From Siphonodentalium dalli (taxonomy: Eukaryota > Mollusca > Scaphopoda > Gadilida > Siphonodentaliidae): a stretch of DNA of 64,000 nucleotides. Numbering within the stretch: the first letter of the stretch is position 1; every line of letters begins with the position of its first letter. The stretch is from the NCBI GenBank assembly GCA_032622095.1, contig CP136069.1, forward strand, positions 2,761,462 to 2,825,461, read 5' to 3'. The notes under the pieces were generated by a model. It was not told the origin of the DNA. It was given only the letters and a program-made list of their open reading frames with translations, and made no database searches. A program made the translations under genes and the position numbers. Of this stretch, positions 5,573 through 64,000 are shown piece by piece.

Positions 5573-5743
5573 ATGGGTAATACTACAGTCGTAGCCAACA
5601 GCGTGAAATCGCAAGCCGATGGTGGCACTTTTAAGATATATCAATTTGCGGACTTGAAAGGAGGAGGTGAACTTGTCGAGTTGGTGAAGACAGCAAGGAA
5701 GACAAAGAATTATGAGGAAGTGGACCATATGATTGCAACGGAG
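5573..5743 (+). CDS. TRPV-like: TRPV exon 1 (coding part), residues 1-57
   Basis: Begins [18 protein letters not shown] and includes [18 protein letters not shown]. It ends MIATE before the donor GTGAGG (GT at 5744), phase 0. The upstream ATG at 5566 stops after four codons, and a pyrimidine tract with AG at 5554-5555 suggests an upstream untranslated exon. The MGN start raises the idea of N-myristoylation, but residue 6 (V) fits the consensus poorly. Confidence 0.85.
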
Positions 5744-8700
5744 GTGAGGATTAATGGACTACCCATATGGCACCTCACATAGATACAGCTGCCATTATGC
5801 TCTGATTAATCTACATGTATCGGTACATCCTTAACAAGTATTACCGAGGTGCAATACCGCAGTCGACTGCAGTATTGAATCAGCAGACTACCGCCTGGTC
5901 CTGGTTGGGATTTGGGTACCGTGGTGACCTGTGGTACCACGCTTCATGACCATGGTGACCTGCGGTAGCACATTTCATGACCATGGTTGACTTAGAGTAA
6001 TGTATTTCATGACTGGGGTTGACTTACTGTAATGTATTTCATGACCAGGGTTGACTTACGTAATGTATTTCATGACCGGGATTGACTTATAGTAATGTAT
6101 TTCATGACCGAGGTTGACTTATAGCAATGTATTTGATGACCGAGGTTGACGTATAGTAATGTATTTGATGACCAGGGTTGACTTATAGTAATGTATTTCA
6201 TGACCGGGGTTGACTTATAGTAATGTATTTCATGACCGGGGTTGACTATAGTAATGTATTTCATGACCGGGGTTGACTTATAGTAATGTATTTCGTGACC
6301 GATGTTGACTTATAGTAATGTATTTCATGACCGGGGTTGACTTATAGTAATGTATTTCATGACCGAGGTTGACTTATAGTAATGTATTTCATGACCAGGG
6401 TTGACTTACGGTAATGTATTTCATGACCAGGGTTGACTTATAGTAATGTATTTCATGACCGGGGTTTACTTATAGTAATGTATTTCATGACTGAGGTTGA
6501 CCGATAGTAATGTATTTCATGACCGTGGTTGACTTACGGTAATGTATTTCATGACCGGGGTTGACTTATAGTAATGTTTTTCATGACCAGGGTTTACTTA
6601 TAGTAATGTATTTCATGATCAGGGTTTACTTATAGTAATGTATTTCATGACCGGGGTTTACTTATAGTAATGTTTTTCATGACCAGGGTTTACTTATAAT
6701 AATGTATTTCATGACCAAGGTTTACTTATAGTAATGTATTTCATGACCAGGGTTGACTTATAGTAATGTATTTTATGACCAGGGTTGACTTATAGTAATG
6801 TATTTCATGACCAGGGTTGACTTATAGTAATGTATTTCATGACCAGGGTTACCCGGTAACTTATAGTAATGTATTTCATGACCAGGGTTGACTTATAGTA
6901 ATGTATTTCATGACCGGGGTTGACTTATAGTAATGTATTTCATGACCAGGGTTGACTTATAGTAATGTATTTCATGACAGGGTTGACTTATAGTAATGTA
7001 TTTCATGACAGGGTTGACTTATAGTAATGTATTTCATGACAGGGTTGACTTATAGTAATGTATTTCATGACCAGGGTTGACTTATAGTAATGTATTTCAT
7101 GACCAGGGTTGACTTATAGTAATGTATTTCATGACAGGGTTGACTTATAGTAATGTTTTTCATGACCAGGGTTGACTTACGGTAATGTATTTCATGACAG
7201 GGTTGACTTATAGTAATGTATTTCATGACCAGGGTTGACTTATGGTAATGTATTTCATGACCGGTGTTGACTTACGGTAATGTATTTCATGACCGCAGTT
7301 ATCTTACAGTAATAATTTCTTGATGTACTGTGGAATGTCATCTGAAAACATGTAAAACAAATTGGCAGAATGAGGTACACAAATGGTGAATATACATGTA
7401 ATGATGCTATCCTGCACTTAGGGTTAGTGTTACCAAATGCACCCTCTTGGGACCTCATTCTGCTCATGCTTCATCTTTTGGTAAGTATCTACATGTATAG
7501 TGTTAAATTAACATTGTTTTTAGTTACTTTTTTCCTTTTGTTGAGTTTCTATATCCCCTGACCTAGAGTCAGGTTTATGTTCCCAGATGGTGAAGATGGT
7601 GGTGTGCTAGCTCCCATTGTGCACCTCAATTACATTTTTGAAAGCTCTCACTGAGAGTAATGCCCTAAGTATTCGACTCTTTAACCACAGCAGAATTATG
7701 GGTAACTTTTCAGGATTTAGACGGAAATATGGCTTGTTTCCGACTAAATCCTGAAAAATTACCCATAATTCTGCTGTGGTTAAAGGTACTCAACCCGTAA
7801 AGAGGGTCCCCATCTCAACAGATTCCAACAACAACAATCCGATCAGAGGGTCCTATATTACTATTTCTTTGGCTTTGGGGGTAAAAAATATTTGATTCCA
7901 GTCGAGGAACCCATCAAACAAAGCTCAGAGTTATTAGATATTGATTTTTGAAAATTCTTATGTTCTCGAGATGAGTACTTATAACTGCCGTCAATTTGGT
8001 AACATGCTCGAGATGTTACGCCAAAATTCTATTCAAACAGACAAGGATGGATAACTCTATAATCAAGTAGTAATAATTGACTACGTACTGGGCCAGAAAG
8101 AATTCCCGATAATGAAAAATAATAGATTTCTAAAATCGATATCTAACAAATCTGAGCTTTGATGGGTGACTTCCTCGACTCGAATCAAATATTTTTGACC
8201 CCCGAAGCCATTGAAATAGTAATTGAGAGGAGTTTTATCGGGTTGAGTACCTTTAAAGAGTCGAATACTTAGGGCCTTTAACTGTATGCACGTCTGTCAA
8301 TATTATACTATTACCAGTGTGAGGCTCAATATAGGGTACATTATACTATTACCAGTGTGAGGCTCAATATAGGGTATATTATACTATTACCAGTGTGAGG
8401 CTCAATATAGGGTACATTATACTATTACCAGTGTGAGGCTCAATATAGGGTATATTATACTATTACCAGTGTGAGGCTCAATATAGGGCATATTATACTA
8501 TTACCAGTGTGAGGCTCAATATAGGGCATATTATACTATTACCAGTGTGAGGCTCAATATAGGGTATATATACTATTACCAGTGTGAGGCTCAATATAGG
8601 GTATATTATACTATTACCAGTGTGAGGCTCAATTATAGGGCATATTATACTATTACCAGTGTGAGGCTCAATATAGGGTATATTATACTATTACCAGTGT

Positions 8701-11700
8701 GAGGCTCAATATAGGGTATATTATACTATTACCAGTGTGAGGCTCAATATAGGGCATATTACACTATTACCAGTGTGAGGCTCAATATAGGGTATATTAT
8801 ACTATTACCAGTGTGAGGCTCAATATAGGGTATATTATACTATTACCAGTGTGAGGCTCAATATAGGGTATATTATACTATTACCAGTGTCAGGCTCAAT
8901 ATAGGGTATATTATACTATTACCAGTGTGAGGCTCAATATAGGGTATATTATACTATTACCAGTGTGAGGCTCAATATAGGGCATATTATACTATTACCA
9001 GTGTGAGGCTCAATATAGGGTATATTATACTATTACCAGTGTGAGGCTCAATATAGGGTATATTATACTATTACCAGTGTGAGGCTCAATATAGGGTACA
9101 TTATACTATTACCAGTGTGAGGCTCAATATAGGGTATATTATACTATTACCAGTGTGAGGCTCAATATAGGGTATATTATACTATTACCAGTGTGAGGCT
9201 CAATATAGGGTATATTATACTATTACCAGTGTGAGGCTCAATATAGGGTATATTATACTATTACCAGTGTCAGGCTCAATATAGGGCATATTATACTATT
9301 ACCAGTGTGAGGCTCAATATAGGGCATATTATACTATTACCAGTGTGAGGCTCAATATAGGGTATATTATACTATTACCAGTGTGAGGCTCAATATAGGG
9401 CATATTATACTATTACCAGTGTGAGGCTCAATATAGGGCATATTATACTATTACCAGTGTCAGGCTCAATATAGGGTATATTATACTATTACCAGTGTGA
9501 GGCTCAATATAGGGCATATTATACTATTACCAGTGTCAGGCTCAATATAGGGTATATTATACTATTACCAGTGTGAGGCTCAATATAGGGTATATTATAC
9601 TATTACCAGTGTCAGGCTCAATATAGGGCATATTATACTATTACCAGTGTCAGGCTCAATATAGGGCATATTATACTATTACCAGTGTGAGGCTCAATAT
9701 AGGGTATATTATACTATTACCAGTGTGAGGCTCAATATAGGGTATATTATACTATTACCAGTGTGAGGCTCAATATAGGGTATATTATACTATTACCAGT
9801 GTGAGGCTCAATATAGGGTATATTATACTATTACCAGTGTGAGGCTCAATATAGGGTATATTACACTATTACCAGTGTCAGGCTCAATATAGGGTATATT
9901 ATACTATTACCAGTGTGAGGCTCAATATAGGGTATATTATACTATTACCAGTGTGAGGCTCAATATAGGGTATATTATACTATTACCAGTGTGAGGCTCA
10001 ATATAGGGTATATTATACTATTACCAGTGTGAGGCTCAATATAGGGTATATTATACTATTACCAGTGTGAGGCTCAATATAGGGTATATTATACTATTAC
10101 CAGTGTGAGGCTCAATATAGGGTATATTATACTATTACCAGTGTGAGGCTCAATATAGGGCATATTATACTATTACCAGTGTGAGGCTCAATATAGGGTA
10201 TATTATACTATTACCAGTGTCAGGCTCAATATAGGGCATATTATACTATTACCAGTGTGAGGCTCAATATAGGGTATATTATACTATTACCAGTGTGAGG
10301 CTCAATATAGGGTATATTATACTATTACCAGTGTGAGGCTCAATATAGGGTACATTATACTATTACCAGTGTGAGGCTCAATATAGGGTATATTATACTA
10401 TTACCAGTGTGAGGCTCAATATAGGGTATATTATACTATTACCAGTGTGAGGCTCAATATAGGGTATATTATACTATTACCAGTGTGAGGCTCAATATAG
10501 GGTATATTATACTATTACCAGTGTGAGGCTCAATATAGGGCATATTATACTATTACCAGTGTGAGGCTCAATATAGGGTACATTATACTATTACCAGTGT
10601 GAGGCTCAATATAGGGCATATTATACTATTACCAGTGTCAGGCTCAATATAGGGCATATTATACTATTACCAGTGTGAGGCTCAATATAGGGTATATTAT
10701 ACTATTACCAGTGTGAGGCTCAATATAGGGTATATTATACTATTACCAGTGTGAGGCTCAATATAGGGTATATTATACTATTATTAGTGTGAGGCTCAAT
10801 ATAGGGCATATTATACTATTACCAGTGTGAGGCTCAATATAGGGTACATTATACTATTACCAGTGTGAGGCTCAATATAGGGTATATTATACTATTACCC
10901 AGTGTGAGGCTCAATATAGGGCATATTATACTATTACCAGTGTGAGGCTCAATATAGGGCATATTATACTATTACCAGTGTGAGGCTCAATATAGGGCAT
11001 ATTATACTATTACCAGTGTGAGGCTCAATATAGGGCATATTATACTATTACCAGTGTGAGGCTCAATATAGGGCATATTATACTATTACCAGTGTGAGGC
11101 TCAATATAGGGTATATTATACTATTACCAGTGTGAGGCTCAATATAGGGCATATTATACTATTACCAGTGTGAGGCTCAATATAGGGTATATTATACTAT
11201 TACCAGTGTGAGGCTCAATATAGGGTACATTATACTATTACCAGTGTGAGGCTCAATATAGGGTACATTATACTATTACCAGTGTGAGGCTCAATATAGG
11301 GTATATTATACTATTACCAGTGTGAGGCTCAATATAGGGTATATTATACTATTACCAGTGTGAGGCTCAATATAGGGTACATTATACTATTACCAGTGTG
11401 AGGCTCAATATAGGGTACATTATACTATTACCAGTGTGAGGCTCAATATAGGGTATATTATACTATTACCAGTGTGAGGCTCAATATAGGGTATATTATA
11501 CTATTACCAGTGTGAGGCTCAATATAGGGTACATTATACTATTACCAGTGTGAGGCTCAATATAGGGCATATTATACTATTACCAGTGTGAGGCTCAATA
11601 TAGGGCATATTATACTATTACCAGTGTGAGGCTCAATATAGGGTATATTATACTATTACCAGTGTGAGGCTCAATATAGGGCATATTATACTATTACCAG

Positions 11701-14700
11701 TGTGAGGCTCAATATAGGGCATATTATACTATTACCAGTGTGAGGCTCAATATAGGGCATATTATACTATTACCAGTGTGAGGCTCAATATAGGGTATAT
11801 TATACTATTACCAGTGTGAGGCTCAATATAGGGTATATTATACTATTACCAGTGTGAGGCTCAATATAGGGTATATTATACTATTACCAGTGTGAGGCTC
11901 AATATAGGGTATATTATACTATTACCAGTGTGAGGCTCAATATAGGGCATATTATACTATTACCAGTGTGAGGCTCAATATAGGGTATATTATACTATTA
12001 CCAGTGTGAGGCTCAATATAGGGTATATTATACTATTACCAGTGTGAGGCTCAATATAGGGTATATTATACTATTACCAGTGTGAGGCTCAATATAGGGT
12101 ATATTATACTATTACCAGTGTGAGGCTCAATATAGGGTATATTATACTATTACCAGTGTGAGGCTCAATATAGGGTATATTATACTATTACCAGTGTGAG
12201 GCTCAATATAGGGTATATTATACTATTACCAGTGTGAGGCTCAATATAGGGTATATTATACTATTACCAGTGTGAGGCTCAATATAGGGTATATTATACT
12301 ATTACCAGTGTGAGGCTCAATATAGGGTATATTATACTATTACCAGTGTGAGGCTCAATATAGGGTATATTATACTATTACCAGTGTGAGGCTCAATATA
12401 GGGTATATTATATTATTACCAGTGTGAGGCTCAATATAGGGTACATTATACTATTACCAGTGTGAGGCTCAATATAGGGCATATTATACTATTACCAGTG
12501 TGAGGCTCAATATAGGGTACATTATACTATTACCAGTGTGAGGCTCAATATAGGGTATATTATATTATTACCAGTGTGAGGCTCAATATAGGGTATATTA
12601 TACTATTGCCAGTGTGAGGCTCAATATAGGGTATATTATACTATTACCAGTGAGGCTCAATATAGGGCATATTATACTATTACCAGTGTGAGGCTCAATA
12701 TAGGGTATATTATACTATTACCAGTGTGAGGCTCAATATAGGGTATATTATACTATTACCAGTGTGAGGCTCAATATAGGGCATATTATACTATTACCAG
12801 TGTGAGGCTCAATATAGGGCATATTATACTATTACCAGTGTCAGGCTCAATATAGGGCATATTATACTATTACCAGTGTGAGGCTCAATATAGGGCATAT
12901 TATACTATTACCAGTGTGAGGCTCAATATAGGGTATATTATACTATTACCAGTGTGAGGCTCAATATAGGGCATATTATACTATTACCAGTGTGAGGCTC
13001 AATATAGGGTATATTATACTATTACCAGTGTGAGGCTCAATATAGGGTATATTATACTATTACCAGTGTGAGGCTCAATATAGGGCATATTATACTATTA
13101 CCAGTGTGAGGCTCAATATAGGGCATATTATACTATTACCAGTGTGAGGCTCAATATAGGGTATATTATACTATTACCAGTGTGAGGCTCAATATAGGGC
13201 ATATTATACTATTACCAGTGTGAGGCTCAATATAGGGTTATTATACTATTACCAGTGTGAGGCTCAATATAGGGTATATTATACTATTACCAGTGTGAGG
13301 CTCAATATAGGGTACATTATACTATTACCAGTGTGAGGCTCAATATAGGGTACATTATACTATTACCAGTGTGAGGCTCAATATAGGGTATATTATACTA
13401 TTACCAGTGTGAGGCTCAATATAGGGTACATTATACTATTACCAGTGTGAGGCTCAATATAGGGTACATTATACTATTACCAGTGTGAGGCTCAATATAG
13501 GGTACATTATACTATTACCAGTGTGAGGCTCAATATAGGGCATATTATACTATTACCAGTGTGAGGCTCAATATAGGGCATATTATACTATTACCAGTGT
13601 CAGGCTCAATATAGGGCATATTATACTATTACCAGTGTCAGGCTCAATATAGGGCATATTATACTATTACCAGTGTGAGGCTCAATATAGGGCATATTAT
13701 ACTATTACCAGTGTCAGGCTCAATATAGGGCATATTATACTATTACCAGTGTGAGGCTCAATATAGGGTATATTATACTATTACCAGTGTGAGGCTCAAT
13801 ATAGGGCATATTATACTATTACCAGTGTGAGGCTCAATATAGGGTATATTATACTATTACCAGTGTGAGGCTCAATATAGGGTATATTATACTATTACCA
13901 GTGTGAGGCTCAATATAGGGTATATTATACTATTACCAGTGTGAGGCTCAATATATGGTATATTATACTATTACCAGTGTGAGGCTCAATATAGGGCATA
14001 TTATACTATTACCAGTGTCAGGCTCAATATAGGGCATATTATACTATTACCAGTGTGAGGCTCAATATAGGGTATATTATACTATTACCAGTGTGAGGCT
14101 CAATATAGGGCATATTATACTATTACCAGTGTGAGGCTCAATATAGGGTATATTATACTATTACCAGTGTGAGGCTCAATATAGGGTATATTATACTATT
14201 ACCAGTGTGAGGCTCAATATAGGGTATATTATACTATTACCAGTGTGAGGCTCAATATATGGTATATTATACTATTACCAGTGTGAGGCTCAATATAGGG
14301 TATATTATACTATTACCAGTGTGAGGCTCAATATAGGGCATATTATACTATTACCAGTGTGAGGCTCAATATAGGGCATATTATACTATTACCAGTGTGA
14401 GGCTCAATATAGGGTATATTATACTATTACCAGTGTGAGGCTCAATATAGGGCATATTATACTATTACCAGTGTGAGGCTCAATATAGGGTATATTATAC
14501 TATTACCAGTGTGAGGCTCAATATAGGGTACATTATACTATTACCAGTGTGAGGCTCAATATAGGGCATATTATACTATTACCAGTGTGAGGCTCAATAT
14601 AGGGCATATTATACTATTACCAGTGTCAGGCTCAATATAGGGCATATTATACTATTACCAGTGTCAGGCTCAATATAGGGCATATTATACTATTACCAGT

Positions 14701-17700
14701 GTCAGGCTCAATATAGGGCATATTATACTATTACCAGTGTGAGGCTCAATATAGGGTATATTATACTATTACCAGTGTGAGGCTCAATATATGGTATATT
14801 ATACTATTACCAGTGTGAGGCTCAATATAGGGTATATTATACTATTACCAGTGTGAGGCTCAATATAGGGCATATTATACTATTACCAGTGTGAGGCTCA
14901 ATATAGGGTATATTATACTATTACCAGTGTGAGGCTCAATATAGGGCATATTATACTATTACCAGTGTGAGGCTCAATATAGGGTATATTATACTATTAC
15001 CAGTGTGAGGCTCAATATAGGGCATATTATACTATTACCAGTGTGAGGCTCAATATAGGGCATATTATACTATTACCAGTGTGAGGCTCAATATAGGGCA
15101 TATTATACTATTACCAGTGTGAGGCTCAATATAGGGCATATTATACTATTACCAGTGTGAGGCTCAATATAGGGTATATTATACTATTACCAGTGAGGCT
15201 CAATATAGGGCATATTATACTATTACCAGTGTGAGGCTCAATATAGGGTATATTATACTATTACCAGTGTGAGGCTCAATATAGGGTATATTATACTATT
15301 ACCAGTGTGAGGCTCAATATAGGGCATATTATACTATTACCAGTGTGAGGCTCAATATAGGGCATATTATACTATTACCAGTGTGAGGCTCAATATAGGG
15401 CATATTATACTATTACCAGTGTGAGGCTCAATATAGGGCATATTATACTATTACCAGTGTGAGGCTCAATATAGGGCATATTATACTATTACCAGTGTGA
15501 GGCTCAATATAGGGTATATTACACTATTACCAGTGTGAGGCTCAATATAGGGCATATTATACTATTACCAGTGTGAGGCTCAATATAGGGCATATTATAC
15601 TATTACCAGTGTGAGGCTCAATATAGGGCATATTACACTATCACCAGTGTGAGGCTCAATATAGGGCATATTATACTATTACCAGTGTGAGGCTCAATAT
15701 AGGGCATATTATACTATTACCAGTGTGAGGCTCAATATAGGGCATATTATACTATTACCAGTGTGAGGCTCAATATAGGGCATATTATACTATTACCAGT
15801 GTGAGGCTCAATATAGGGCATATTATACTATTACCAGTGTGAGGCTCAATATAGGGTACATTTTAATATTATCACTAGGTGAAGAGCTTCCTGTATAATG
15901 AGGGAAGAGGTAAAAAGATGCACTTCCACGACCTTATAAGGAAGCGGAACAAAGAATTCGGAAAAAAGCTGAAAGGCGGGCGTGAAAAGTCAGTGAAAGA
16001 ACTCGTGATGAATGACCTTCACTTGAAAGAGGATGACGAAAATAACCTTCGTTTTGACCCCAGTGAGTTTTTAACCTTTAACTACTGTCAAGACTCAAAA
16101 TAAAAAAAATTCTACTGACTGTCAAAATGACAGGCACCAAATGGATGGTGTTGGTCATTTCAAAATGGTGTCTGTCAAATTTTCAGATGTACATGTACTG
16201 AATGAGACCGTATTTAAATTTCCAATCAACTTATTATTTGTCAATGAGTGAGTTAGTGAGCGTCCAATCGGCACCCAGAAAAAACCTTCTTATTTTTGTT
16301 TTCAAAAGTTCAAAAACATTCCATCAATGTACAAATGCACTTCACAAATGAGATAATTGCATTAACTCTGAATTGATATGAAATTAAAAAAGAACTATTT
16401 TTTACTTTCAATGTCCGATTTGGCCAGTATAGTAGTGGCTCCTTGGATGTACCCAAACAGATACAGATTGTTTAAAAATTTGCATTGGACAAAATGTCCG
16501 ACAGATACTGAAGTGCACTGGACATAAGCTATTTTTCCGCCAAGGAAAGCCCTTCAACAGAACTATGCGGATTAAATCTCCGGCCTTGTGTCAATCAGGA
16601 GGGTTAAAATTTTATTGCTGTCCGACTCCGCTGTTCACACCCATGCTCAGATTAGTCACGCATGAATACGCCCAAGTAAATCCCGCATTCTTCTAATTAT
16701 CTAGTCAGTTTGTTTGTATACGTAATTCGTTTCGTGTTTTTGTTTTCTCATCAAGTCGGTTCCTTCTAAAAAATTAGAAATAAGAAGGACATCTTGACGA
16801 TGACTAAAGACGCACATAGCTTACTTGTGGCGACACCAAATTTTGCATTTTTGTGCAACATATACGGCGTGATAACTTACGATAAATCCGAAAGATAGTC
16901 CTTGTTATCAGATGACAATTGACATTTCTTTTGACTGAGCGATCTGTACCATTGTTTTAACAATCAATACCTGCGAATTTACACCCGCCAGTATGTATGA
17001 ACGTGAGGTCTTGTATTAGACCCATGGCAAATGTAATACAACATTACAGCTACTTCAAGGTATTTAGAAAATTCTGCCTTGTCTATCACGATTACATATC
17101 CTTTAACTCATTGTATCATCAGTACAATAGTTACTAACACTCCGTAGCAGGGAGATTATATTCGTTATCCCATATATAAACTCACTTCAGATTGGTGTGT
17201 TGTCTGTTGCTATAACTATAGTGTTGCATTATTTACATCCATGTATGTACAGTATGGCTGTAACAGTTTGGGTTACTACGAGTCAGGCGATTGGTTTGAT
17301 TGGGGCCGAGGGCACCCTGATATACAAGCTTTGACGACAACCAATTTTCATTAAAAAGTTTATCAATTGAAATATCGATCAACGACTGCAAAGCAGTGAA
17401 AACGTAGTAACCTGACACTCCAGCTACACCTGGCTCAAACACTGGCCTACTTGTGGCAAGTAACCATATCCAATGGGACCTTGGTAAACAAGGGAAAGCT
17501 TTGTCTTCAATACGGCGCACCTTGTTCATAAGGGGCATGGTCAGGGTGTTGCAACGATTTATCGGCTTGCCAGCATCTCACTGAATTTCAATTAAACGAT
17601 GTTTCTCCTTATTATCATCCGCCAGATGATTTAAGATTTACGCCGTCCACAGGTTAGTAATTAGAATTGTAAATTGTAAATGTGATGTAACGACTGTGAT

Positions 17701-26700: not shown

Positions 26701-29700
26701 ATAATATGTTAATTTTACTACAGTAAATTTCAGGATTTAGTCGGAAACATGGCTTGTTACCATTCATCGGAAAGCTCTCAGTGAAGCTTTCCAATGAATG
26801 GTAACAAGCCATATTTCCGACTAAATCCTGAAAAATTACCCATAATTCTGCTGTGGTGACGGAGTCGATTATTTAGGGCATTGCTATATGTCCACTAAGT
26901 TTACTGACTATGTTCTAATTGTACACTATCATGACAGTCGTAAGTCGGGATTTTTTTACCCTGTGCCAATGCATTCTCTTATATATGCGAGTCGACCATA
27001 GGTCGCCTCGCATATATAAGAGAATGCATTGGCCTAACAATTTCTTACAATTTTAATAATTTTTTCTTGTATTCTTTAACAATTTTATAATTTCACCCAT
27101 ACAGAGCCCCAGACAAACATGAGCAGACGACACTCTTCTATATGCTTCTATATATGTGTGGGGCTCCCTGCAGGGTAATGGATGTTTTTTATTTTATGTC
27201 CTAAAAATTGTAAGAAATTAAAAAAATAAATGATAAAAAATTGTTAGGCCAATGCATTCTCTTATATATGCGAGGCGACCTATGGTCGACTCGCATATAT
27301 AAGAGAATGCATTGGCACAGGGTAAGAATTTCATTACAATCCCATCAATCATCTAATAATTTCAGATCCCGAGTACCGTGAGGTATGTTGGGACATTGAA
27401 CAGCGTGGTGCTGTCGGTGAAACCATCTTTCACATGTGTATCCTGCATAATAATCCCGTCCACCACGATCTCGCCAAACGACTGCTGGCTCACTTTCCGA
27501 AGCTCATAAACGATATATATCTTGATGATGAATATTACGGTAAGTTGTACATACTGTGAGGCATGCTGGGTAATATACCTGGATATTACGGTAAGTCAGC
27601 CAAGTCTGAGTTAAGTGTGTGTGACATTTGCAAATTTACCCTCTGGGGACCTCATTCTGCTTAGGCATTTTTTTTAAAATGATAGTGTGAACATTTAGGA
27701 CCAGCTTGGTATTGTCGATTAAGGGATGGAATCATGGGAGGGGCGGTCAACACGGGTCAATTTTTTTTTTTCGACCGATCTCCAAACTCGGAACATAAAG
27801 TCTCTATGCGTCACCGATTACAGATATGCAAATCGTTATTGTAAACATATTTTATTCCAATCAAAATATAACATATATAAACATTTGACAGACATTTAAC
27901 AGGAGTATAGAATAGTACAAATATTCAACTGATTGGAAAGGGGATTAAACAACAAGCCCAAGGGCTTTTATTAATTTTGCTCCCCTAAATCGTTCCCCGA
28001 TCGCTTGGTAAATGACAGAGATACAGGCCTTCAAACATTTAAAGATTGGGCTAGAGTGACTTCTCGCCGTATCTCCTCTGAAAATAATGAATCTAGGTCA
28101 ATATTTTATTTATATTTTTATTGTACATGATGGCATGTATGAACATTTGGGATGGAGTCAAGAGAGGGGGCAACACTCCATGTGGGGGTCTCTATTGGGC
28201 ATGAAATTTTTTTTTGTCTTGTCATTGCAGGCCGGATAAGATGTGTTTCAAATTAACCCTTTACCCAACAAACCGGCCAAAACCGGCCAAATAAAGCTTC
28301 AACAGCCTAAAATATCTTCGGTCTGTCTCAATAGAACCATACAAATATGGATATCATTGGAACCGGCTCCTTGACCACATTGTGATAGTTACAGTTATGC
28401 CCTGTGCCAATGCATTCTCTTATATATGCGAGTCGACCATAGGTCGCCTCGCATATATAAGAGAATGCATTGGCCTAAAAAAAAAAATTCTTACATTCTT
28501 TAACAATTTTATAATTTTTAATGTGTTAAGCCAATGCATTCTCTTATATATGCGAGGTGACCTATGGTCGACTCGCATATATAAGAGAATGCATTGGCAC
28601 AGGGCCGTTCTGTTGGGTAAAGGGTTAAGCAAGTCTGAATTTAGTGTATCTGACATTTGCAGAATGAGGTCCTCAGAGGGTGAATTTAGCGATGCTATCC
28701 TGCACAGTGGGCTAGTATCACCAAATTCACCCTCTGGGGACCTCATTCTGCAAATGTCAGATACAATAAATTGAGACTTGAAATTAAGCCACAGTTCACC
28801 CCATATGCACTACATTCTGGCTACTGCAGTCTATATGGGTCATGAAAGGCACATGTTTCAAATTAACCCTTTACCCAACAAAACGGCCATAGGTCGCCTC
28901 GCATATACATGTATAAGACATAACACATATTAAAAATGATAAAATTGTCAAAGAATGTAGAAAAATATTATAAAAATTGTTAAAAAATGTAAGAAAAAAT
29001 TATAAAATTGTTAAACAATGCAAGAAAATATGGTAAAAAGTGTTAAAAAATGAATTTGTTTTAGGCCAATGCATTCTCTTATATATGCGAGGCGACCTAT
29101 AAGATAATGCATTGGCACAGGGCATAACTGTAACTATCACAATGTGGTCAATGAGCCGGTTCCAATGATATCCATATTTGTATGGTTCTATTGAGACAGA
29201 CCCAAGATAATTTAGGCTGTTGCAGCTTCATTTGGGCTATTTTTCTGGGTTAAGCCACATCATAAAATTAACAAACCTCAATGAAAAGACACCTTTGCCT
29301 GGGATACACTGTCTTGTGCACTTGTTTTGAATGTAACTGTAACATTTTTTTCAGGAGAGACTGCCTTGCATATAGCGATAGTCAATGAGGACCCGGCTAT
29401 GGTGAAATTTTTCTTGGATCATGGTGCCGATTTTAATTATCGATGCTGTGGGAACTTCTTCTGTCCATTCGATCAGAAGTCATCAAGAAAGGACAGCGGG
29501 GAACATGAATGGATGGACGTCGGTGAAAATACAAATTATGACGGGTAAGATAAATTTTCAGAACTGGCGACAATATCATTGAAATTTCATATATTTTACT
29601 GCAGACCTACACCTTACAACTTAACCCTTTCAGTACTAGTGCCAAGTCCGATTTTTGTATCAACCCCTCTGGATCTCTATATCTTACAACCGAACATGAA

Positions 29701-30876
29701 TGGATGGACGTTGGTCAATATACAAATTATGACGGGTAAGATATGTTCTGAAAAACAACAATTGTTTCGTGGTTGTCCAATTCTCATAATTTTCAAGGTT
29801 CCTGAAATCCACAAAATTAAAAATCCCACGATGAAGTTTCGTCAACAGATATTTTAAGCTGCGGTTTCCGTTTTGGAAAATAGTATGCCATGGGTATATT
29901 CAGGTGTAGGGAGGTAACTCTATTAACCATGGGTATATTCAAGTGTAAGGAGGTAACTCTATTAACAATACCAATTATTGTGAAGTAAGTTATTTGATCT
30001 GGAGGTGAATAGCCACTGTATAAAGTTTAATAATAATTTGATGACAATCTATCAATTCATGCTCACACATTTAACCACTTTCGTGCCACTTTCATTGTAA
30101 TAAGTAACCGTATTTATCACTATATGCGGGAAAAGAGTACCCGATTCTCACACAGAAATGCGCAAACTAAAGCGCAAGGGGCAGGGTTGGCGCTGGATGA
30201 AAATTTTCTCTTGCCAAAATGACTATTTTTTTGCCAAATTAAAAAAATATTTGCCAAATTTAATTGTGCGTATAATTGGAAAAATTATTGTGTTTTTATC
30301 TTTGTTAAAATCTAACAACAGACACAGGTAAAATGAGCTAATAGAAAAGCAAGTTAATATTTTTAATAAATATCAAAGTATCAATAAATATCTAAGCGAC
30401 ATCTGCCTGGAAACTATGTTTAATGTTGCTACACAGTCATCAAGGATACATATTATTTCGCCTTGTATTACTGCTGAAATCAACGAGCCATAAATTAATC
30501 CGTCGTCATTCACACTCGGCTGATTAACCTATTGTCCTATACTCGCTGGTAATATAATGCTGACATCATAAATAATTGCTTTATAATGTCGCCATTAATA
30601 TACATTGTTACAATGACTACATGCGTCCATAATCCAAACGTACAAAGGGAGGATTAACTGGCAAAACAAATAAATAATTACCTTTTGCGGTATCTACATT
30701 GAGATCATGTTACAAAGTACAAACTACAGCCTCAATGAAAAATTTACAGAACATCATTTTTTTTTCCCGACTCACATTTTAACCCTTTGAGTGCCAGGGG
30801 CCGATCTCATCGGCCCGAAACCTACAAAATAAGTATGTTAAAGAATATAAGAATAAATTATTAAAATTGTAAAAAA

Positions 30877-30907
<31 letters not shown>

Positions 30908-48900: not shown

Positions 48901-50083
48901 TCCATGATGCAATTTATTACATGTATATAACCCTAAAAATGTAAAAAAAAATAAGATGACTTTGAACATATTTTAAAAGATAATTTTAGGTGGAGCATTC
49001 TCAGCAAGTAATTTTACCCTGTGCCAATGCATTCTCTTATATATGCGAGTCGACCATAGGTCGCCTCGCATATATAAGAGAATGCATTGGCCTAACAATT
49101 TTTTATCATTTTTTTTTATAAATTGTTCTTACAATTTTTAGGACATAAAATAAAAAACATCCATACACATATATAGAAGCATGTCGTCTGCTCATGTTTA
49201 TCTGGGGCTCTGTATGGGTGACATTATAAAATTGGAAATTAATAACTGTCATAAAACGATATATGATCTGAACGTGTGAAAGACTTGAATGACTCTGATG
49301 TAATTTGATTCATTTTCGGAATAACGTTCTGGCAATCTTTTGTATAGTTGCACAAAACATGAAACCAAATGAATCTACATTATGACATGCAAGTCGCAAA
49401 ATCTGGTATATATGATTGTATGTATGTGCAGGCTGCCGTGAATCTTACATTGGCGAGACCGACAACACGTTACGTGAGCACATGACATTACACCGTCAAC
49501 ACATCAGGCAGTCTGAATACAGAGAGATACAATTAAGCCAACATCTTGATGTTTGTGGGAACGGAAAGCTGAATTCACTGAAATGACGTCATACCATACA
49601 TGCCGGAAATGACGTCATACCATACATGCCGGAAATGACGTCATACCATACATGCCGGGAATGATGTCATACCATACATGCCGGAAATGACGTCATACCA
49701 TACATGCCTGAAATGACGTCATACCATACATGCCTGAAATGGTGTCATACCATACATGCCTGAAATGACGTCATACCATACATGCCAGAAACGGAAATGA
49801 CGTCGTACCATACATGTCGGAAATGACGTCATACCATACATGCCGGAAATGACGTCACACCATACATGCCGGAAATGACGTCATACCATACATGTCGGAA
49901 ATGACGTCATACCATACATGCCGGAAACGGAAATGACGTCACAATACAATACACTAACTTTGATTATCTTTAAATCTGAAGAGCTCTTTTAAGAGTGAAA
50001 TTAATGCATAATATTAAAAAAGATAATCATAAAAATGAGTCATATTCAACATGTTATTCATATATTGAACTGTTAATCATTTG

Positions 50084-50120
<37 letters not shown>

Positions 50121-53100: not shown

Positions 53101-56100
53101 AACAAGTTACCTTATTTGTTCGAAATACTTAGTGGTTTTCTATAACATTCTGATCAAAATTGCCAGTCGGAGGTGCGTGGAATACACCAGTCCATACATC
53201 TTGGAAATCCTTCGACTGACAACTTTGGTCAGAATGTTAGAGCAAACAAATGTGAATTTGGACATAAATGAGGTATCAGTTTGTTTGACAGTTAGTATAG
53301 CATCTGCTCGTAGCTGTCAAAATACTATGTTATATGTCATATCTTAGTTTATTACCTTTTTTCCTTGCTTTTAGTCGCATTTTAGATCGCCTCGGCCATT
53401 TTGAATGCGTGATACTCATCAACTCGAAACCACGTGATTCCCCATCGTGAATTTGCCATGAAATCACGACATGGTAAAGTAATATATATAGAGTTCAGGG
53501 GTACTAAAACTAAGAATTCAATTCAACAAAGATAGGTTTTTGTAATGCTATATTTTATTGTGATTTAGTTCAAGGAACCAATCACTGTTTACTACAATGT
53601 AATACTACAATGTAAAATCACAGATTTATAAAAAAAACATGAATTCAACAGTATCAATTTAACCCTTTACCAAAACGGTCAAAAACGCCCAAATAAAGCT
53701 TCTTCGGTCTGTCTCAATAACAACATACAAATATGGATATCATTGGAACCGGTTCATTGACCACATTGTGATGGTTACAGTTATGCCCTGTGCCAATGCA
53801 TTCTCGTATATATGCGAGTCGACCATAGGTCGCCTCGCATATATAAGAGAATACATTGGCCTAAAAAAAAATTCTTACATTTTTTATAATATTTTTCTAC
53901 ATTCTTTGACAATTTTATCATTTTTAATATGTGTTAAGCCAATGCATTCTCTTATATATGCGAGGCGACCTATGATCGACTCGCATATATAAGAGAATGC
54001 ATTGGCACAGGGCCGTTCTGTGATTATATTCATTATTGTGTTCTTGTATCTCATAATATTAATGAAATTAACTTCTCTTAATGCACCCCATACAACAGCG
54101 AGAGAGGGATTATTCAATGAAGGTTTGTTTATATACCCATAAAATACTGAATGGATTAAAGAATTAACAGTCAATAGTATTGAGAAGACAAGTCATTCAC
54201 TGATCTCAAAAAGAGCAGCGAAACTCAATGGATAGCTTTCTGATGTAACAATTTGGAGGGTCTATATCGGATCATGGACAATATACTCTCCCACAATGTG
54301 TTACTATGATGATCAATATCAGCTATGTTTAAACTAGCTTTTGCTAGAGTAATGCCCCAAATAATCGACTCCTTAACCACAGCAGAATTATGGGTAACTT
54401 TTCAGGATTTAGTCGGAAATATGGCTTGTTGCCATTCATCGGAAAGCTCTCAGTTTACCCATAATTATGTTGTGGTTAAGGGGTCGATTATTTAGGGCAT
54501 TACTGTAGATGCCGTGTTGTTATGAATTATAGTGTCACACCAAAGTACACATATGAAATTTCTATTCCAAACATGGGAAAAGTGTCATTAATTTCTTTAT
54601 CACCGCAAGAGTTTTTGCTTTCTAAATTGTTGCACAGCATTATTATGCTAGTCTGCTATGTGGGATAGAGTCACTAAATTCACCCTCTGAGGAACTCATT
54701 CTGCAAATAACAGGCACACTAAATTCAGACTTGATCTACTTTATAGGCGTGAAGACATTAGCGAATAATTCATATGTCAGACAGGGGAGGGGGGGGGGTC
54801 GGTCAAAAGTAAAAACATAGCACGCGAAAATGGCCTTAGTTATCCTTGGACTACACAAAAAAAACAAAAAGAATGAATTTTTTTTTTTTGTTGCAAATTT
54901 GGGAATATTTAGGTGCCACGCCCACTAAAATGAAAACAGAAATAATGAGTTTCAAAGCAAATAAAACCAATATCTTAGACCTATTATGTTCTTAAGTGGC
55001 CACTGAAGACATAGCAAAACTCAAACTTCTTGTATCAGTGAAAAAAATGACAAAAAGTGGATTTTAAAAAAATGGTCTGGCTGCGGGGGACCCACCCCCC
55101 CCTAGGCCCTATATGTTGCAAATTTTTTCCTCCCCTCCCCTCTGTGTCAGATGATTAATTCAATCGGATTGAATTATTCAAGTGATTTGTGGAAAACATG
55201 TCACAGATTTCAACTATAAAATAATTTCTAACAAATTATTTCTAAAAACTACTTCCCAATAAATCGCCCCATTTGTAGAGATTAATTTAATTTGTCATAA
55301 TTCCATGGAAAAAGTTAAGGATATTTAACTGAAAAATAATTTTCTCTATTTTAGGAAATGTTTGATTTGCTGCATACTTTGGGAGCAAAACTGAATATCA
55401 CCAATCGACAAGGATTAACTCCCCTTACGCTGGCCTCAAAGCTCGCGAGAAAGGAGGTAAGCAAGCCTTGAAATAAGGTGTCTGTCATTTGCAGAATGAG
55501 GTCCCCAGAGGGTGAATTTAGTGATGCTACCCCGCATAGCGGGCTAGCATCACCAAATTCACCCTCTGGGAACCTCATTCTGCTGAGGTGTAAGCAGAAT
55601 GAGGTCCCCAGAGGGTGAATTTGGTGATGCTATCCCGCATAGCGGGGTAGCATCACCAAATTCACCCTCTGGGGACCTCATTCTGCAAATGATAGACACC
55701 CTATTTCAAGGCTTGGAGGTAAGTGCTGTAACTGCAAGACATACATGTACCGCTAACTCCACTTACACTGGCATTGAAGCTGAGAAAGGAAGAAAATATA
55801 ACACTATCTATATCCCTGAAACCAGGTCTGGCACTTTCCCCAATTGATGACGTATATATGCCAATCGTCCTTGCGATTGAAAGAAATACCCACTAATTTA
55901 TAAATCTGAAATTACATAAACAGTGTATGACTTAATGTTTAGCTGACAGGTAATATATGACAAAGCCGATAAAAATGCTGCGATAAATTCAAAGTGGTCA
56001 TGTCGGCATGTTGTTCAGATAGGTAGATCATGCCATGAATCTCTACTCTGGCTAAAGTAAAATTAAGTGGGCCTTTAACAAACGCCTTCTCTGGTAAATA

Positions 56101-59100
56101 CTCTGTGCCAATGCATTCTCTTATATATGCGAGTCGACCATAGGTTGCCTCGCATATATAAGAGAATGCATTGGCCTAACAAAATTTTATTATTTGTTCT
56201 TGCCTTCTATAACAATTTAAAAAAAAAATTCTTATATTCTTTAACAATTTTATAATTTCACCCATACAGAGCCCCAGTCAAACATGAGCAGACGACACTC
56301 AGTACACATGCTTCTATATATGTGTGGGGCTCCCTGCAGGGGGTTCGAAAATTCAAAGTGGACATGTCAGCATGTTGTTCAGATAAGTAGATCATGCCAT
56401 GAACCTCTACTCTGGCTAAATACCTGTAGAGATTGTATTCTACTGGTACAAAACCTGGGAACTTTTTGAAGTTTTGAAAGGGAACCTTATAAAGTCGAAA
56501 AATTAACACAGGGAATATATTTCTTAGTTCCTTAACCCTTTACCCAACAAACCGGCCAAAACCGGCCAAATAAAGCTTCAACAGCCTAAAACATCTTCGG
56601 TCTGTCTCAATAGAACCATACAAATATGGATATCATTGGAACCGGCTCCTTGACCACATTGTGATAGTTACAGTTATGCCCTGTGCCAATGCATTCTCTT
56701 ATATATGCGAGTCGACCATAGGTCGCCTCGCATATATAAGAGAATGCATTGGCCTAAAAAAAATCTTTTTTTAACACTTTTTACCATTTTTTCTTACATT
56801 CTTTAACAATTTTATAATTTTTAATGTGTTAAGCCAATGCATTCTCTTATATATGCGAGGCGACCTATGGTCGACTCGCATATATAAGAGAATGCATTGG
56901 CACAGGGCCGTTCTGTTGGGTAAAGGGTTAATACTGATCAGGTGTATCTCTGATTGTTTCAGATGCATGACCACATTTTGGAGATCGAGAGAAGCATTTA
57001 CTGGATTTACGGGAATGTGACGTGTGCAGGCTATCCACTGGACTCCATTGATACAATATCGCCGTCAGGGGAGATAAACCAGAACTCCGCCCTCTATCTC
57101 GTCGTATATGGGGTATGTCTAGTTAGAATGTGAGATGTGCTGTCTATGTTGCCATATATGGGCAATGATAAACCAGAGCTCCGCCCACATATCATTGTAT
57201 ATGGGGTATGATAAACCAGAGCTCCGCCCCTATCATTGTATATGGGGTATGATAAACCAGAGCTCCGCCCCTATCATTGTATATGGGGAATGATAAACCA
57301 GAGCTCCCCCTATCATTATATAAGGGGAATGATAAACCAGAGCTCTGCCCCCCTATCATTGTATATGGGGTATGATAAACCAGAGCTCCGCCCCCCTATC
57401 ATTGTATATGGGCAATGATAAACCAGAGCTCTGCCCCCTATCATTGTATATGGGGAATGATAAACCAGAGCTCTGCCCCCCTATCATTGTATATGGGGTA
57501 TGATAAACCAGAGCTCCGCCCCTATCATTGTATATGGGGTATGATAAACCAGAGCTCCGCCCCCCTATCATTGTATATGGGGAATGATAAACCAGAGCTC
57601 TGCCCCCTATCATTGTATATGGGGTATGATAAACCAGAGCTCCGCCCCTATCATTGTATATGGGGTATGATAAACCAGAGCTCCGCCCCCCTATCATTGT
57701 ATATGGGGTATGATAAACCAGAGCTCCACCCCCTATCATTGTATATGGGGAATGATAAACCAGAGCTCCGCCCCCTATCATTGTATATGGGGTATGATAA
57801 ACCAGAGCTCCGCCCCTATCATTGTATATGGGGTATGATAAACCAGAGCTCCGCCCCTATGATTGTATATTGGGTATGATAAACCAGAGCTCCGCCCCCT
57901 ATCATTATATAAGGGGTATGATAAACCAGAGTTCCGCCCCTATCATTGTATATGGGGAATGATAAACCAGAGCTCCGCCCCCCTATCATTGTATAAGGGG
58001 TATGATAAACCAGAGCTCCGCCCCCTATCATTGTATATGGGGTATGATAAACCAGAGCTCCGCCCCTATCATTGTATATGGGGTATGATAAACCAGATCT
58101 CCGCCCCCCCTATCATTGTATATGGGGTATGATAAACCAGAGCTCCGCCCCTATCATTATATAAGGGGTATGATAAACCAGAGCTCTGCCCCCTATCATT
58201 GTATATGGGTTATGATACACCAGAGCTCCGCCCGTATCATTATATAAGGGGTATGATAAACCAGAGCTCCGCCCCTATCATTGTATATGGGGTATGATAA
58301 ACCAGAGCTCCGCCCCCTATCATTGTATATGGGGTATGATAAACCAGAGCTCTGCCCCCCTATCATTGTATATGGGTTATGATACACCAGAGCTCCGCCC
58401 GTATCATTATATAAGGGGTATGATAAACCAGAGCTCCGCCCCTATCATTGTATATGGGGTATGATAAACCAGATCTCCGCCCCTATCATTGTATATGGGT
58501 TATGATACACCAGAGCTCCGTCCGTATCATTATATAAGGGGTATGATAAACCAGAGCTCCGCCCCTATCATTGTATATGGGGTATGATAAACCAGAGCTC
58601 CGCCCCTATCATTATATAAGGGGTATGATAAACCAGAGCTCCGCCCCTATCATTGTATATGGGGTATGATAAACCAGAGCTCTGCCCCCCTATCATTGTA
58701 TATGGGGTATGATAAACCAGAGCTCCGCCCCCCCTATCATTGTATATGGGGTATGATAAACCAGAGCTCCGCCCCTATCATTGTATATGGGGTATGATAA
58801 ACCAGAGCTCCGCCCCCTATCATTGTATATGGGGTATGATAAACTAGAGCTCCGCCCCTATCATTGTATATGGGGTATGATAAACCAGAGCTCTGCCCCC
58901 TATCATTGTATATGGGTTATGATACACCAGAGCTCCGCATCATTATATAAGGGGTATGATAAACCAGAGCTCCGCCCCTATCATTGTATATGGGGTATGA
59001 TAAACCAGAGCTCCGCCCCTATCATTGTATATGGGGTATGATAAACCAGATCTCCGCCCCCCCTATCATTGTATATGGGGTATGATAAACCAGAGCTCCG

Positions 59101-62100
59101 CCCCTATCATTATATAAGGGGTATGATAAACCAGAGCTCTGCCCCCCTATCATTGTATATGGGTTATGATACACCAGAGCTCCGCCCGTATCATTATATA
59201 AGGGGTATGATAAACCAGAGCTCCGCCCCTATCATTATATAAGGGGTATGATAAACCAGAGCTCCGCCCCCCTATCATTGTATATGGGGAATGATAAACC
59301 AGATCTCCGCCCCCCTATCATTGTATATGGGGTATGATAAACCAGAGCTCCGCCCCCCTATCATTGTATATGGGGTATGATAAACCAGAGCTCCGCCCCC
59401 TATCATTGTATATGGGTTATGATAAACCAGAGCTCTGCCCCCCTATCATTGTATAAGGGGTATGATAAACCAGAGCTCGCCCCTATCATTGTATATGGGG
59501 TATGATAAACCAGAGCTCCGCCCCCCTATCATTGTATGTGGGGTATGATAAACCAGAGCTCCGCCCCCCTATCATTGTATATGGGGTATGATAAACCAGA
59601 TCTCCGCCCCCCCCCCCTATCATTGTATATGGGGTATACAGGGCCGTTCTGTTGGGTAAAGGGTTAAACAGTTATCTTGGTTTTGATTTTGTATACAACT
59701 TGGATTTCAGGAGGAGCAGGAGCATATTGAGATGATGGACGGGTTAGTGGTCAATCTACTCATAGAGAAATGGAAAACCTTCATCAGATTCAGGTATGTA
59801 TCTCCATAGAAACCCCCGCTCAGACCGAAGCAGACTACAGGTATGTATCTCCATAGAAACCCCCGCTCAGACCGAAGCAGACTACAGGTATGTATCTCCA
59901 TAGAAACCCCCGCTCAGACCGAAGCAGACTACAGGTATGTATCTCCATAGAAACCCCCGCTCAGACTGAAGCAGACTACAGGTATGTATCTCCATAGAAA
60001 CCCCCGCTCAGACCGAAGCAGACTACAGGTATGTATCTCCATAGAAACCCCCGCTCAGACCGAAGCAGACTACAGGTATGTATCTCCATAGAAACCCCCG
60101 CTCAGACCGAAGCAGACTACAGGTATGTATCTCCATAGAAACCCCCGCTCAGACCGAAGCAGACTACAGGTATGTATCTCCATAGAAACCCCCGCTCAGA
60201 CCGAAGCAGACTACAGGTATGTATCTCCATAGAAACCCCCGCTCAGACCGAAGCAGACTACAGGTATGTATCTCCATAGAAACCCTCGCTCAGACCGAAG
60301 CAGACTACAGGTATGTATCTCCATAGAAACCCCCACTCAGACCGAAGCAGACTACAGGTATGTATCTCCATAGAAACCCCCGCTCAGACCGAAGCAGACT
60401 ACAGACGATGAAGAGTCAGTAGCAGGCCTTAACCCTTTACCCAACAAACCGGCCAAAACCGGCCAAAACCGGCCAAATAAAGCTTCAACAGCCTAAAATA
60501 TCTTCGGTCTGTCTCAATAGAACCATACAAATATGGATATCATTGGAACCGGCTCCTTGACCACATTGTGATAGTTACAGTTATACCCTGTGCCAATGCA
60601 TTCTCTTATATATGCGAGTCGACCATAGGTCGCCTCGCATATATAAGAGAATGCATTGGCCTAAAAAAAATCTTTTTTTAACACTTTTTACCATTTTTTC
60701 TTACATTCTTTAAAAAAATTTAATGTGTTAAGCCAATGCATTCTCTTATATATGCGAGGCGACCTATGGTCGACTCGCATATATAAGAGAATGCATTGGC
60801 ACAGGGCCCTTCTGTTGGGTAAAGGGTTAACAAAATGTGGTTCCCAGAGTGTATATTTTGTGACGCGAGCCCATTGTGCGTGATAGCGTCATTTAATTCC
60901 CCCTCTGGAGATCTCATTCTGCAGACAATGGAGAGGTATGTAGCCCCATCAGGGTCCCCAGTCAAATCGCATGCAGACCAGGGATGGGGTAATTGTAATT
61001 TGTAATTGTAATTGACTGTAATTAATTACATTTTTTCAAGTAATTGCATGTAATTGAGTTTATTCTCAATTACATGTAATTGCAATTGTAATTGGTTAGG
61101 ATGTAATTGTAATTGTAATTTGGGTCTAATTTCAATTACTTCAAAATCACAGGTACTTATTTCTTCTCAAAGTTCTCTTTCATGATTCATCCAATGGTTT
61201 CTTCAAATGTTTTTTTCCAAATTTCAAAGTGTAAGACTGGTGACTGGCTATCACTATGTTGTCACAACACTGAGTTTTCACCCGCTGTGTCTCAATGGTT
61301 AATTCTGTGGACACCTCTTTGGTTGCTTAAGCATTGGTTTACCGTTGAGGTAGAAGGCTTGTTTTGATAAATACAATGAGAAACCAACTTCAAATAATTG
61401 ACAATAGATCACTATAATAGATCACTCTTATGATCATGTTTCATTATCTCCACCTGATTGCAGACAACACACGTCACCTTCAAGTTAACCATTTCAGGAC
61501 GGAAGATACTGTGCCAGCGCATCCTCTTTCTATGCGAGTCTCCCATAGGGAGCCTCAAATATACAAGAGAATGCACTGGCTTACAAGGTAAATATTCTTA
61601 GGCCAATGTATTCTCTTATACGTATGTCAGGCTCCCAATGGGAGACATGCATATATAAGAGAATGCATTGACACAGGGTTTTCGCAAAATTTCAGGAAGC
61701 TCCAGTCACGGAAGGGTTAAATATGTATGCCTGTTGGGAGCCCCAGAACACAGTGTACTGCACCTGCCAGAATGAGGTCCCCAGAGGTTGAATTTAGTTA
61801 ACGTCACCAAATTCATCCTCTGTGACCTCATTCTGCGTGGCATATGTTATGACCTAGACTCGGATTTAAGTTTCACGATGGTGATGAGCACCCATTGGGC
61901 ACCTCGATTATGCTCTGTGTCGTCTGCCAATTTGGGGATATGGAGGACCTAAACTAACAAGACAATTACAGACTCTTAAATAAATTGCTAGATTAACATT
62001 TTCACGCAAATTGGGCGGGAGGCTGTGGGAGGGCGAATTTTATGATATTGAAGCAGTATCCTATCTTATATAATACAAGGTGATTTATATAGTCCAATTT

Positions 62101-63280: not shown

Positions 63281-64000
63281 GTGAGTAAATATGTTAACCC
63301 CATAGAGAGCCCCACATACATGTAGACTGCAGCAGACGACAACTCCACAGTGCAAGCTTCCATCTATGTGAGGCTCCCTGTGGGTTAAACATTAAACTCA
63401 GATACCGATTTTGTGAGTAAATATGTTAACCCCATAGAGAGCCCCTCATACATGTAGACTGCAGCAGACGACAACGCCACAGTGCAAGCTTCCATCTGTG
63501 TGAGCCGCGATCCCTGTGGGTTAAACATTAAACTCAGATACAGATTTTGTGAGTAAATATGTTAACCCCATAGAGAGCCCCTCATACATGTATGACCGGA
63601 AAGATAAAGAGCACCGTATACAAACGAATATATACGGACTAAGTCCTATAAGAGTGTGCATTAGATTTGATCCCATATAAAATTCATGATATTGTGATCT
63701 ATTATGACCAAATGAGGAACCAAATCGCAATATTTCACCCGAAATGGAATCCGTTTATATAAATACATGAATCCGGAATCTAGCTTAACTTGTGTCTTGA
63801 ATCCGGCGTACGGGTCCAAAATGGGTCGAATCCGGCATACGAAAAGGGGGGGAAGGGGCCCTCAAATATGTTAACCCCATAGAGAGCCCCACATACATGT
63901 AGACTGCAGCAGACGACAACTCCACAGTGCAAGCTTCCATCTGTGTGAGGCTCCCTGTGGGTTAAACATTAAACTCAGATACCGTTTTTGTGAGTAAATA
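63265..64000. repeat. Tandem units joining the exon 10 end, its donor and a family G element
   Basis: Each unit (about 132-136 bp) has CTCAGATACCGATTTTGTGA, GTAAATATGTTAACCCC and a G element. Donor copies start at 63281 (real), 63413, 63549 and 63990. A stretch of other sequence (63590-63865) interrupts the third unit. The window ends inside the array. Confidence 0.92.

Follow-up and report, generated by a model that had tools for sequence, protein, structure and literature searches.

Splice-junction copies in a Nanchung-like TRPV gene

Several splice junctions of a predicted TRPV channel gene in this mollusc are accompanied, in the adjacent intron, by partial copies of themselves, and the resulting arrays and relics are best read as exon-edge minisatellites of the kind described in amphioxus as mirages. 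Chance tandem duplication in a repeat-rich mollusc genome, followed by tolerance, probably accounts for these copies, and no preference of the duplications for junctions needs to be invoked. The genome assembly totals 2.23 Gb in nine contigs; the window, i.e. the whole stretch of DNA analysed, is 64 kb long and lies at 2.76–2.83 Mb on a contig of 215 Mb. It holds nine TRPV exons, whose phases are consistent:

5573..5743, + strand: E1, coding start of the Nanchung-like TRPV gene
15879..16062, + strand: E2
27366..27539, + strand: E3
29355..29544, + strand: E4
32720..32873, + strand: E5
55355..55456, + strand: E6
56963..57112, + strand: E7
59711..59793, + strand: E8
63085..63280, + strand: E9, first transmembrane segment (by eye)

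The joined protein of 468 aa shares 63% identity with a Haliotis TRPV5-like channel, its top named matches being molluscan, and residues 1–447 of 468 align with the Nanchung chain 9nvo (E = 3e-161), the Nanchung chains being the best matches in the PDB. On this ankyrin–TRPV similarity over the length present in the window, the gene is predicted to be a Nanchung/TRPV5-like channel. The same alignment bears out the view that each genuine exon keeps its code, and it crosses the E5–E6 join ungapped, while next to the E2–E3 join the Nanchung row shows just two gaps of one residue each; one of the ten exons of the original prediction is therefore unsupported, and those formerly numbered 7–10 would be E6–E9 here. 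Since the protein in the window ends near the first transmembrane segment, the gene presumably runs past the window. E1 and its flanks also have a second copy 162 kb upstream (G000:C9:2604734-2604910; L014), 99.7% identical over 2,278 bp, which is either a recent segmental duplication or an uncollapsed haplotype. Open frames with reverse-transcriptase-like wording at 47006–48029 resemble, by eye, a non-LTR retrotransposon remnant.

Each of 17 junctions was compared with its adjacent intron by aligning the 90 bases around it (60 exonic and 30 intronic), and 300 dinucleotide shuffles served as the control for each. Seven of them beat all 300 shuffles (floor p = 0.003), namely the donors of E4, E6, E7, E8 and E9 and the acceptors of E2 and E5. 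The copy at the E3 donor was marginal (p = 0.023–0.027), and the E5 donor match (p = 0.03) came from a long, gapped, AT-rich alignment of 64–67% identity and was judged to be chance. The remaining eight junctions gave no adjacent-intron copy (p of 0.12 or more, 300 shuffles), including the E1 donor, for which the dinucleotide-shuffle test across the whole intron returned p = 0.877. The claim that most junctions carry copies thus holds for the donors (five solid and one marginal of nine) and fails for the acceptors (two of eight). The copies outside the E6–E9 region are:

8300..15871, + strand: 38-bp minisatellite, 199 copies, ending 7 bp before E2
27580..27596, + strand: marginal E3 donor copy, 16/17 bp, 40 bp downstream (p = 0.023–0.027)
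29692..29752, + strand: E4 donor copy, 61 bp, with 44 bp of exon end and 19 bp of intron, 89% identical (score 47.5, p = 0.003)
32175..32210, + strand: E5 acceptor copy, 36 bp, with 9 bp of intron and 27 bp of exon, 86% identical (p = 0.003)

E4 and E5 are represented by a single diverged copy each, and the E2 acceptor matches the units of the 38-bp minisatellite (p = 0.003), an array that abuts it.

Minisatellite arrays at E7, E8 and E9

At three consecutive donors the repeat unit itself spans the exon–intron boundary:

57155..59611, + strand: 41-bp minisatellite, 59 units, the unit being about the last 40 bp of E7 plus GTATG
59791..60404, + strand: 47-bp minisatellite, 13 units, starting at CAG/GTATGT of E8
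63264..63592, + strand: 132-bp composite repeat of the E9 end, donor, intron start and sequence like the 33227–33662 array (by eye)
63865..64000, + strand: the 132-bp E9 repeat resumes

The E7 array, in units of about 41 bp, begins 42 bp past the exon end, and 43 GGGGTATG sites occur in the downstream intron; its 59 units confirm that copies can reach about 60 units. Downstream of the E8 donor lie 12 further donor copies, ACAG/GTATGTATC, which carry just the last few exon bases, and a CAGA-T-CAG-like sequence is common to the exon end and the unit end, suggesting microhomology. The 12 E8 unit boundaries, ACAG/GTATGT, read as acceptor-like and donor at once, as in recursive splice sites; by eye, their acceptor side has no good pyrimidine tract. 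E9 has six intron donor copies, starting at 63399, 63535 and 63976 and, beyond the window, at 64108, 64240 and 64372; two TRF rows for the extended locus (L085) place the end of the array at base 559 or base 692, the farther of which corresponds to a window position of about 64630. A dispersed, pre-existing satellite captured by the exon was considered for E7 and E8 and rejected, since a four-unit E7 query and the E8 units matched their own locus only in a genome-wide search that skips very common words.

According to a simple splice matrix, the decoy donors at E3, E4, E8 and E9 score the same as the real donor, the target-site copy at E6 scores above it (7.7 versus 6.2) and the E7 units score below it (1.4 versus 2.8). 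With decoys that equal or exceed the real donor, the choice of site would have to rest on position or exon signals, and we infer correct splicing at the first donor. With these decoys, the TRPV gene offers a natural setting in which to study how the spliceosome chooses its site.

An inverted-repeat element at the E6 donor

The E6 donor served as the 8-bp insertion target of an inverted-repeat element and was thereby duplicated:

55454..55461, + strand: left 8-bp target site GAGGTAAG (the E6 donor itself)
55462..55715, strand unassigned: terminal-inverted-repeat element at the E6 donor
55716..55723, + strand: right 8-bp target site GAGGTAAG
55754..55795, + strand: relic of the E6 exon end beyond the element, 42 bp, 78% identical (p = 0.003)

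The mechanism varies by junction, as the original prediction had stated: E6 shows a target-site duplication, E7 and E8 show minisatellite growth, and E9 has a composite unit. The core of the element family has 74 matches in the sequence searched (up to 3 substitutions; duplicate loci counted), and its terminal inverted repeats start with CAAGCC. Perfect 8-bp target sites flank three copies, at 55462–55715, at about 62102–62541 and at about 626–1074 of L081. From the features of the class, we take the element to be a hAT-like miniature inverted-repeat element (MITE). The terminal inverted repeats and 8-bp target sites of the family agree with this assignment; other paired copies have no clear 8-bp site, unlike hAT-like MITEs (pairs near 23.9–24.2, 28.7 and 43.2–43.4 kb show either no target site or 5 of 8 bases).

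Similar copies in other genes

Comparable copies occur in several unrelated genes, at 6 of 77 scored junctions across CCT chaperonin, myosin and TRPV-paralog loci; five CCT exons and one myosin exon show them. Among the CCT exons, one carries a 39-bp array that repeats the exon end with its donor (L079) and another a 63-bp duplication that includes the donor (L075), so that here, too, the repeat unit spans the boundary; a third has two intron copies of its exon end on the donor side (L082), and two have duplicated acceptors (L061, L076). The myosin case (L031) is a duplicated donor common to the near-identical copy L033; none of this type was found in 110 intron bases of the five other myosin loci compared.

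These loci belong to a control of 42 non-redundant exon loci (CCT chaperonins, myosins, a TRPV paralog), taken with 1.5 kb on each side and with dispersed repeats masked. The families were hand-chosen (the best 30 of 53 CCT matches, the best 30 of 85 myosin matches and 16 TRPV-query matches), a choice that favours conserved, well-matching exons. Of 62 exon loci entered, 20 near-duplicates were dropped; the single-frame loci L021, L023, L055 and L056 were excluded, and L001–L008 served in the repeat mask only. Junctions in the control genes were placed by profile match and a typed splice matrix, without transcripts. Six donor windows masked as dispersed repeat (five in other genes, and E6) and one low-complexity acceptor were left out of the rates. 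The L082 junction was scored at the copy, the true L082 donor also being a match, and the counts are given as first made.

Two side observations arose from these loci. Near-identical CCT pairs (L057/L058, L065/L066, L068/L069, L070/L071, L077/L078, L081/L084; longest pieces 95.5–99.0%) lie 37 to about 170 kb apart and could represent haplotypes that the assembly has set in tandem. When the nine TRPV exons of the window were taken together with the 42 control loci, dispersed repeat made up more than one-fifth of the 60 junction bases at 6/50 donors versus 0/50 acceptors, a contrast that would be expected were insertions kept clear of the branch point and pyrimidine tract.

Junctions compared with intronic sequence

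With a local copy defined as a Smith–Waterman score of 18 or more for 60-mers, copies were found at 6/16 junctions of the TRPV gene versus 694/1359 (51%) of its intron 60-mers (Fisher p = 0.32), and at 6/77 junctions of the other genes versus 277/2991 (9.3%) of theirs (Fisher p = 0.84). Mid-exon 60-mers had local copies in 0/6 cases in the TRPV gene and 2/38 in the other loci. The proposal that junctions are preferred sites therefore finds no support in the raw rates, the junctions being no richer in copies than random intronic 60-mers either in the TRPV gene or in the 42 other loci.

Because each array multiplies the intron matches, each intron match was also weighted by 1/copy number (founder weighting). 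At cut-offs of 15, 18 and 22, the founder-weighted intron rates of the TRPV gene were 16.0, 13.2 and 11.0%, against 7/16, 6/16 and 4/16 junctions (p = 0.008, 0.013 and 0.091), a two- to threefold excess at the founder level in a gene picked for looking unusual and under a weighting chosen after the fact. The other 42 loci showed the same leaning, with founder-weighted intron rates of 6.4, 3.9 and 3.0% against 10/77, 6/77 and 6/77 junctions (p = 0.024, 0.078 and 0.027). In a further set of 16 kinesin exons (our own pick from 123 matches, added later with 300-bp flanks, unmasked, one donor not found), 0/31 junctions had a local copy, and the intron count was 23/211 (5.8% founder-weighted). Pooling all independent junctions at cut-off 18, kinesins included, gave 6/108 versus about 4.8 expected (hand sum), so that the excess lies mainly in the gene that drew attention.

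The TRPV gene exceeds the other genes in its junction rate (6/16 versus 6/77, p = 0.005) and in its intron rate too (51% versus 9%), and the whole TRPV locus is minisatellite-rich. For 18 hand-chosen arrays, with element-derived, AT-rich and very small arrays omitted, 0.54 junction-covering founders were expected and three were seen (E7, E8, E9; p = 0.017). A TRF count over 58 other loci placed two junctions inside arrays, too few to use alone. A preference for junctions is not demonstrated, and the other genes, a small sample, offer no convincing indication of one. The original prediction had itself warned that exonic copies are easier to notice, rightly so: an exon copy is readily recognised as a founder, which makes the junction cases look special.

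Origin of the copies

Taken together, we favour an origin in which short tandem duplications, probably through microhomology or slippage, would be frequent in the introns of this genome, and one would occasionally span a splice junction. Such a duplication would be tolerated by selection because the original splice site stays by the intact exon and the extra copies land in the intron; some would then expand to dozens of units. The E6 donor was also hit by a hAT-like inverted-repeat element, whose insertion duplicated it as an 8-bp target site. Five or six affected donors out of nine is nevertheless a high number for a single gene. That count, with its five solid cases and one marginal one, speaks for the view that tandem duplication favours splice junctions, and donors most of all, for example where transcription, R-loops or the spliceosome make junctions break-prone, as do the founder-weighted excess, about threefold in the TRPV gene and about twofold in the other 42 loci, and the local copies within 300 bp found in 21/148 windows at 0–240 bp after other-gene donors versus 4/165 before acceptors. 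These windows, in our reading, partly count the same few arrays repeatedly, the difference between donors and acceptors (8/44 versus 4/49) is not significant (p = 0.22), the raw rates do not set junctions above introns, and the pooled independent junctions give 6/108 versus about 4.8 expected. We regard this view as unlikely, and with it the idea that junctions, chiefly donors, seed tandem duplications two- to threefold over other intron DNA, so that co-transcriptional events at donors would drive the birth of mirages and the E8 array, with AG/GT at its 47-bp boundaries, would form a ready series of recursive splice sites from which new introns could be made.

The copies could instead have been made by introner-like transposons with a taste for donor-like targets, given that the E6 donor is an exact 8-bp target site and that family copies lie ~20 bp after three other donors (L018, L059, L095). 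The two other perfect target sites of the family, CCAATTTG and GTTAAGAG (read from the flanks), are unlike a donor, no element of this kind was noticed at the copies of E4, E7 and E8, and the absence of elements near acceptors fits the branch-point and pyrimidine-tract constraint; a family with donor preference was rejected on the target sites, and we hold this origin to be very unlikely. Slightly less credit still is due to an assembly artefact, whether an erroneous repeat count or a false join between haplotypes. Several exon loci do have a nearly identical second copy (longest pieces 95.5–99.7%), which suggests uncollapsed haplotypes, but diverged units and relics are hard to produce by assembly, and similar structures are present in independent genes. 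Least probable of all is the alternative raised by the original prediction, that the copies are decaying relics of past whole-exon duplications. They are homologous to the exon and partly diverged (78–89% identity at E4, E5 and E6), but they hold about 0–45 bp of exon and never a whole one (exons of 83–196 bp), stopping short of the 60 exon bases searched; the E8 copies have the last few exon bases only, and the arrays keep constant short periods. Whole-exon decay was rejected on this partial extent.

Comparison with known systems

The mirage literature reportedly includes a 2002 paper on amphioxus Adh. Mirages have been described at amphioxus Adh3, the globins BflGb6 and BflGb9, TnC and PGBD5 (PMC3087553, PMC3902484), TnC and PGBD5 being added by the latter; in the portions of these two papers drawn on here, they are reported from amphioxus only. 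Our narrow search of open-licence papers found none on exon-edge arrays in molluscs. The TRPV locus shares with amphioxus mirages, as those portions describe them, minisatellite-like tandem duplications that span exon–intron boundaries at donor or acceptor, retention of the authentic site, many units with splice signals, variable unit length and the occurrence in several genes of one genome. It differs in its mollusc host, in arrays of up to 59 units and in the involvement of 7 (8 with the marginal case) of 17 junctions of one gene; moreover, the amphioxus cases were studied by RT-PCR and haplotype length variation, and the present ones from the genome sequence. Their presence in a mollusc, with a 59-unit example and several conserved genes affected, suggests that mirages need not be peculiar to cephalochordates and may arise generally as a by-product wherever a genome is rich in minisatellites.

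Mirage copies are also raw material for intron gain, and two further systems bear comparison. Variable internal tandem repeats at human exon–intron boundaries (PMC2812944) resemble the TRPV arrays in being minisatellite expansions at such boundaries; the human repeats, in the part of that paper considered, vary between recent paralogs and may create introns, while the TRPV coding exons show no visible change. In Rogers-type intron gain, as cited in PMC3087553 and with a potato case in PMC4974935, AGGT segments are tandemly duplicated. Within what these sources offer, the E8 array is similar in that its unit starts with AG/GT and ends with ACAG, so that the boundaries are AG/GT proto-splice sites, and it is unlike Rogers-type gain in that its 47-bp units sit in an existing intron and a new intron is not shown.
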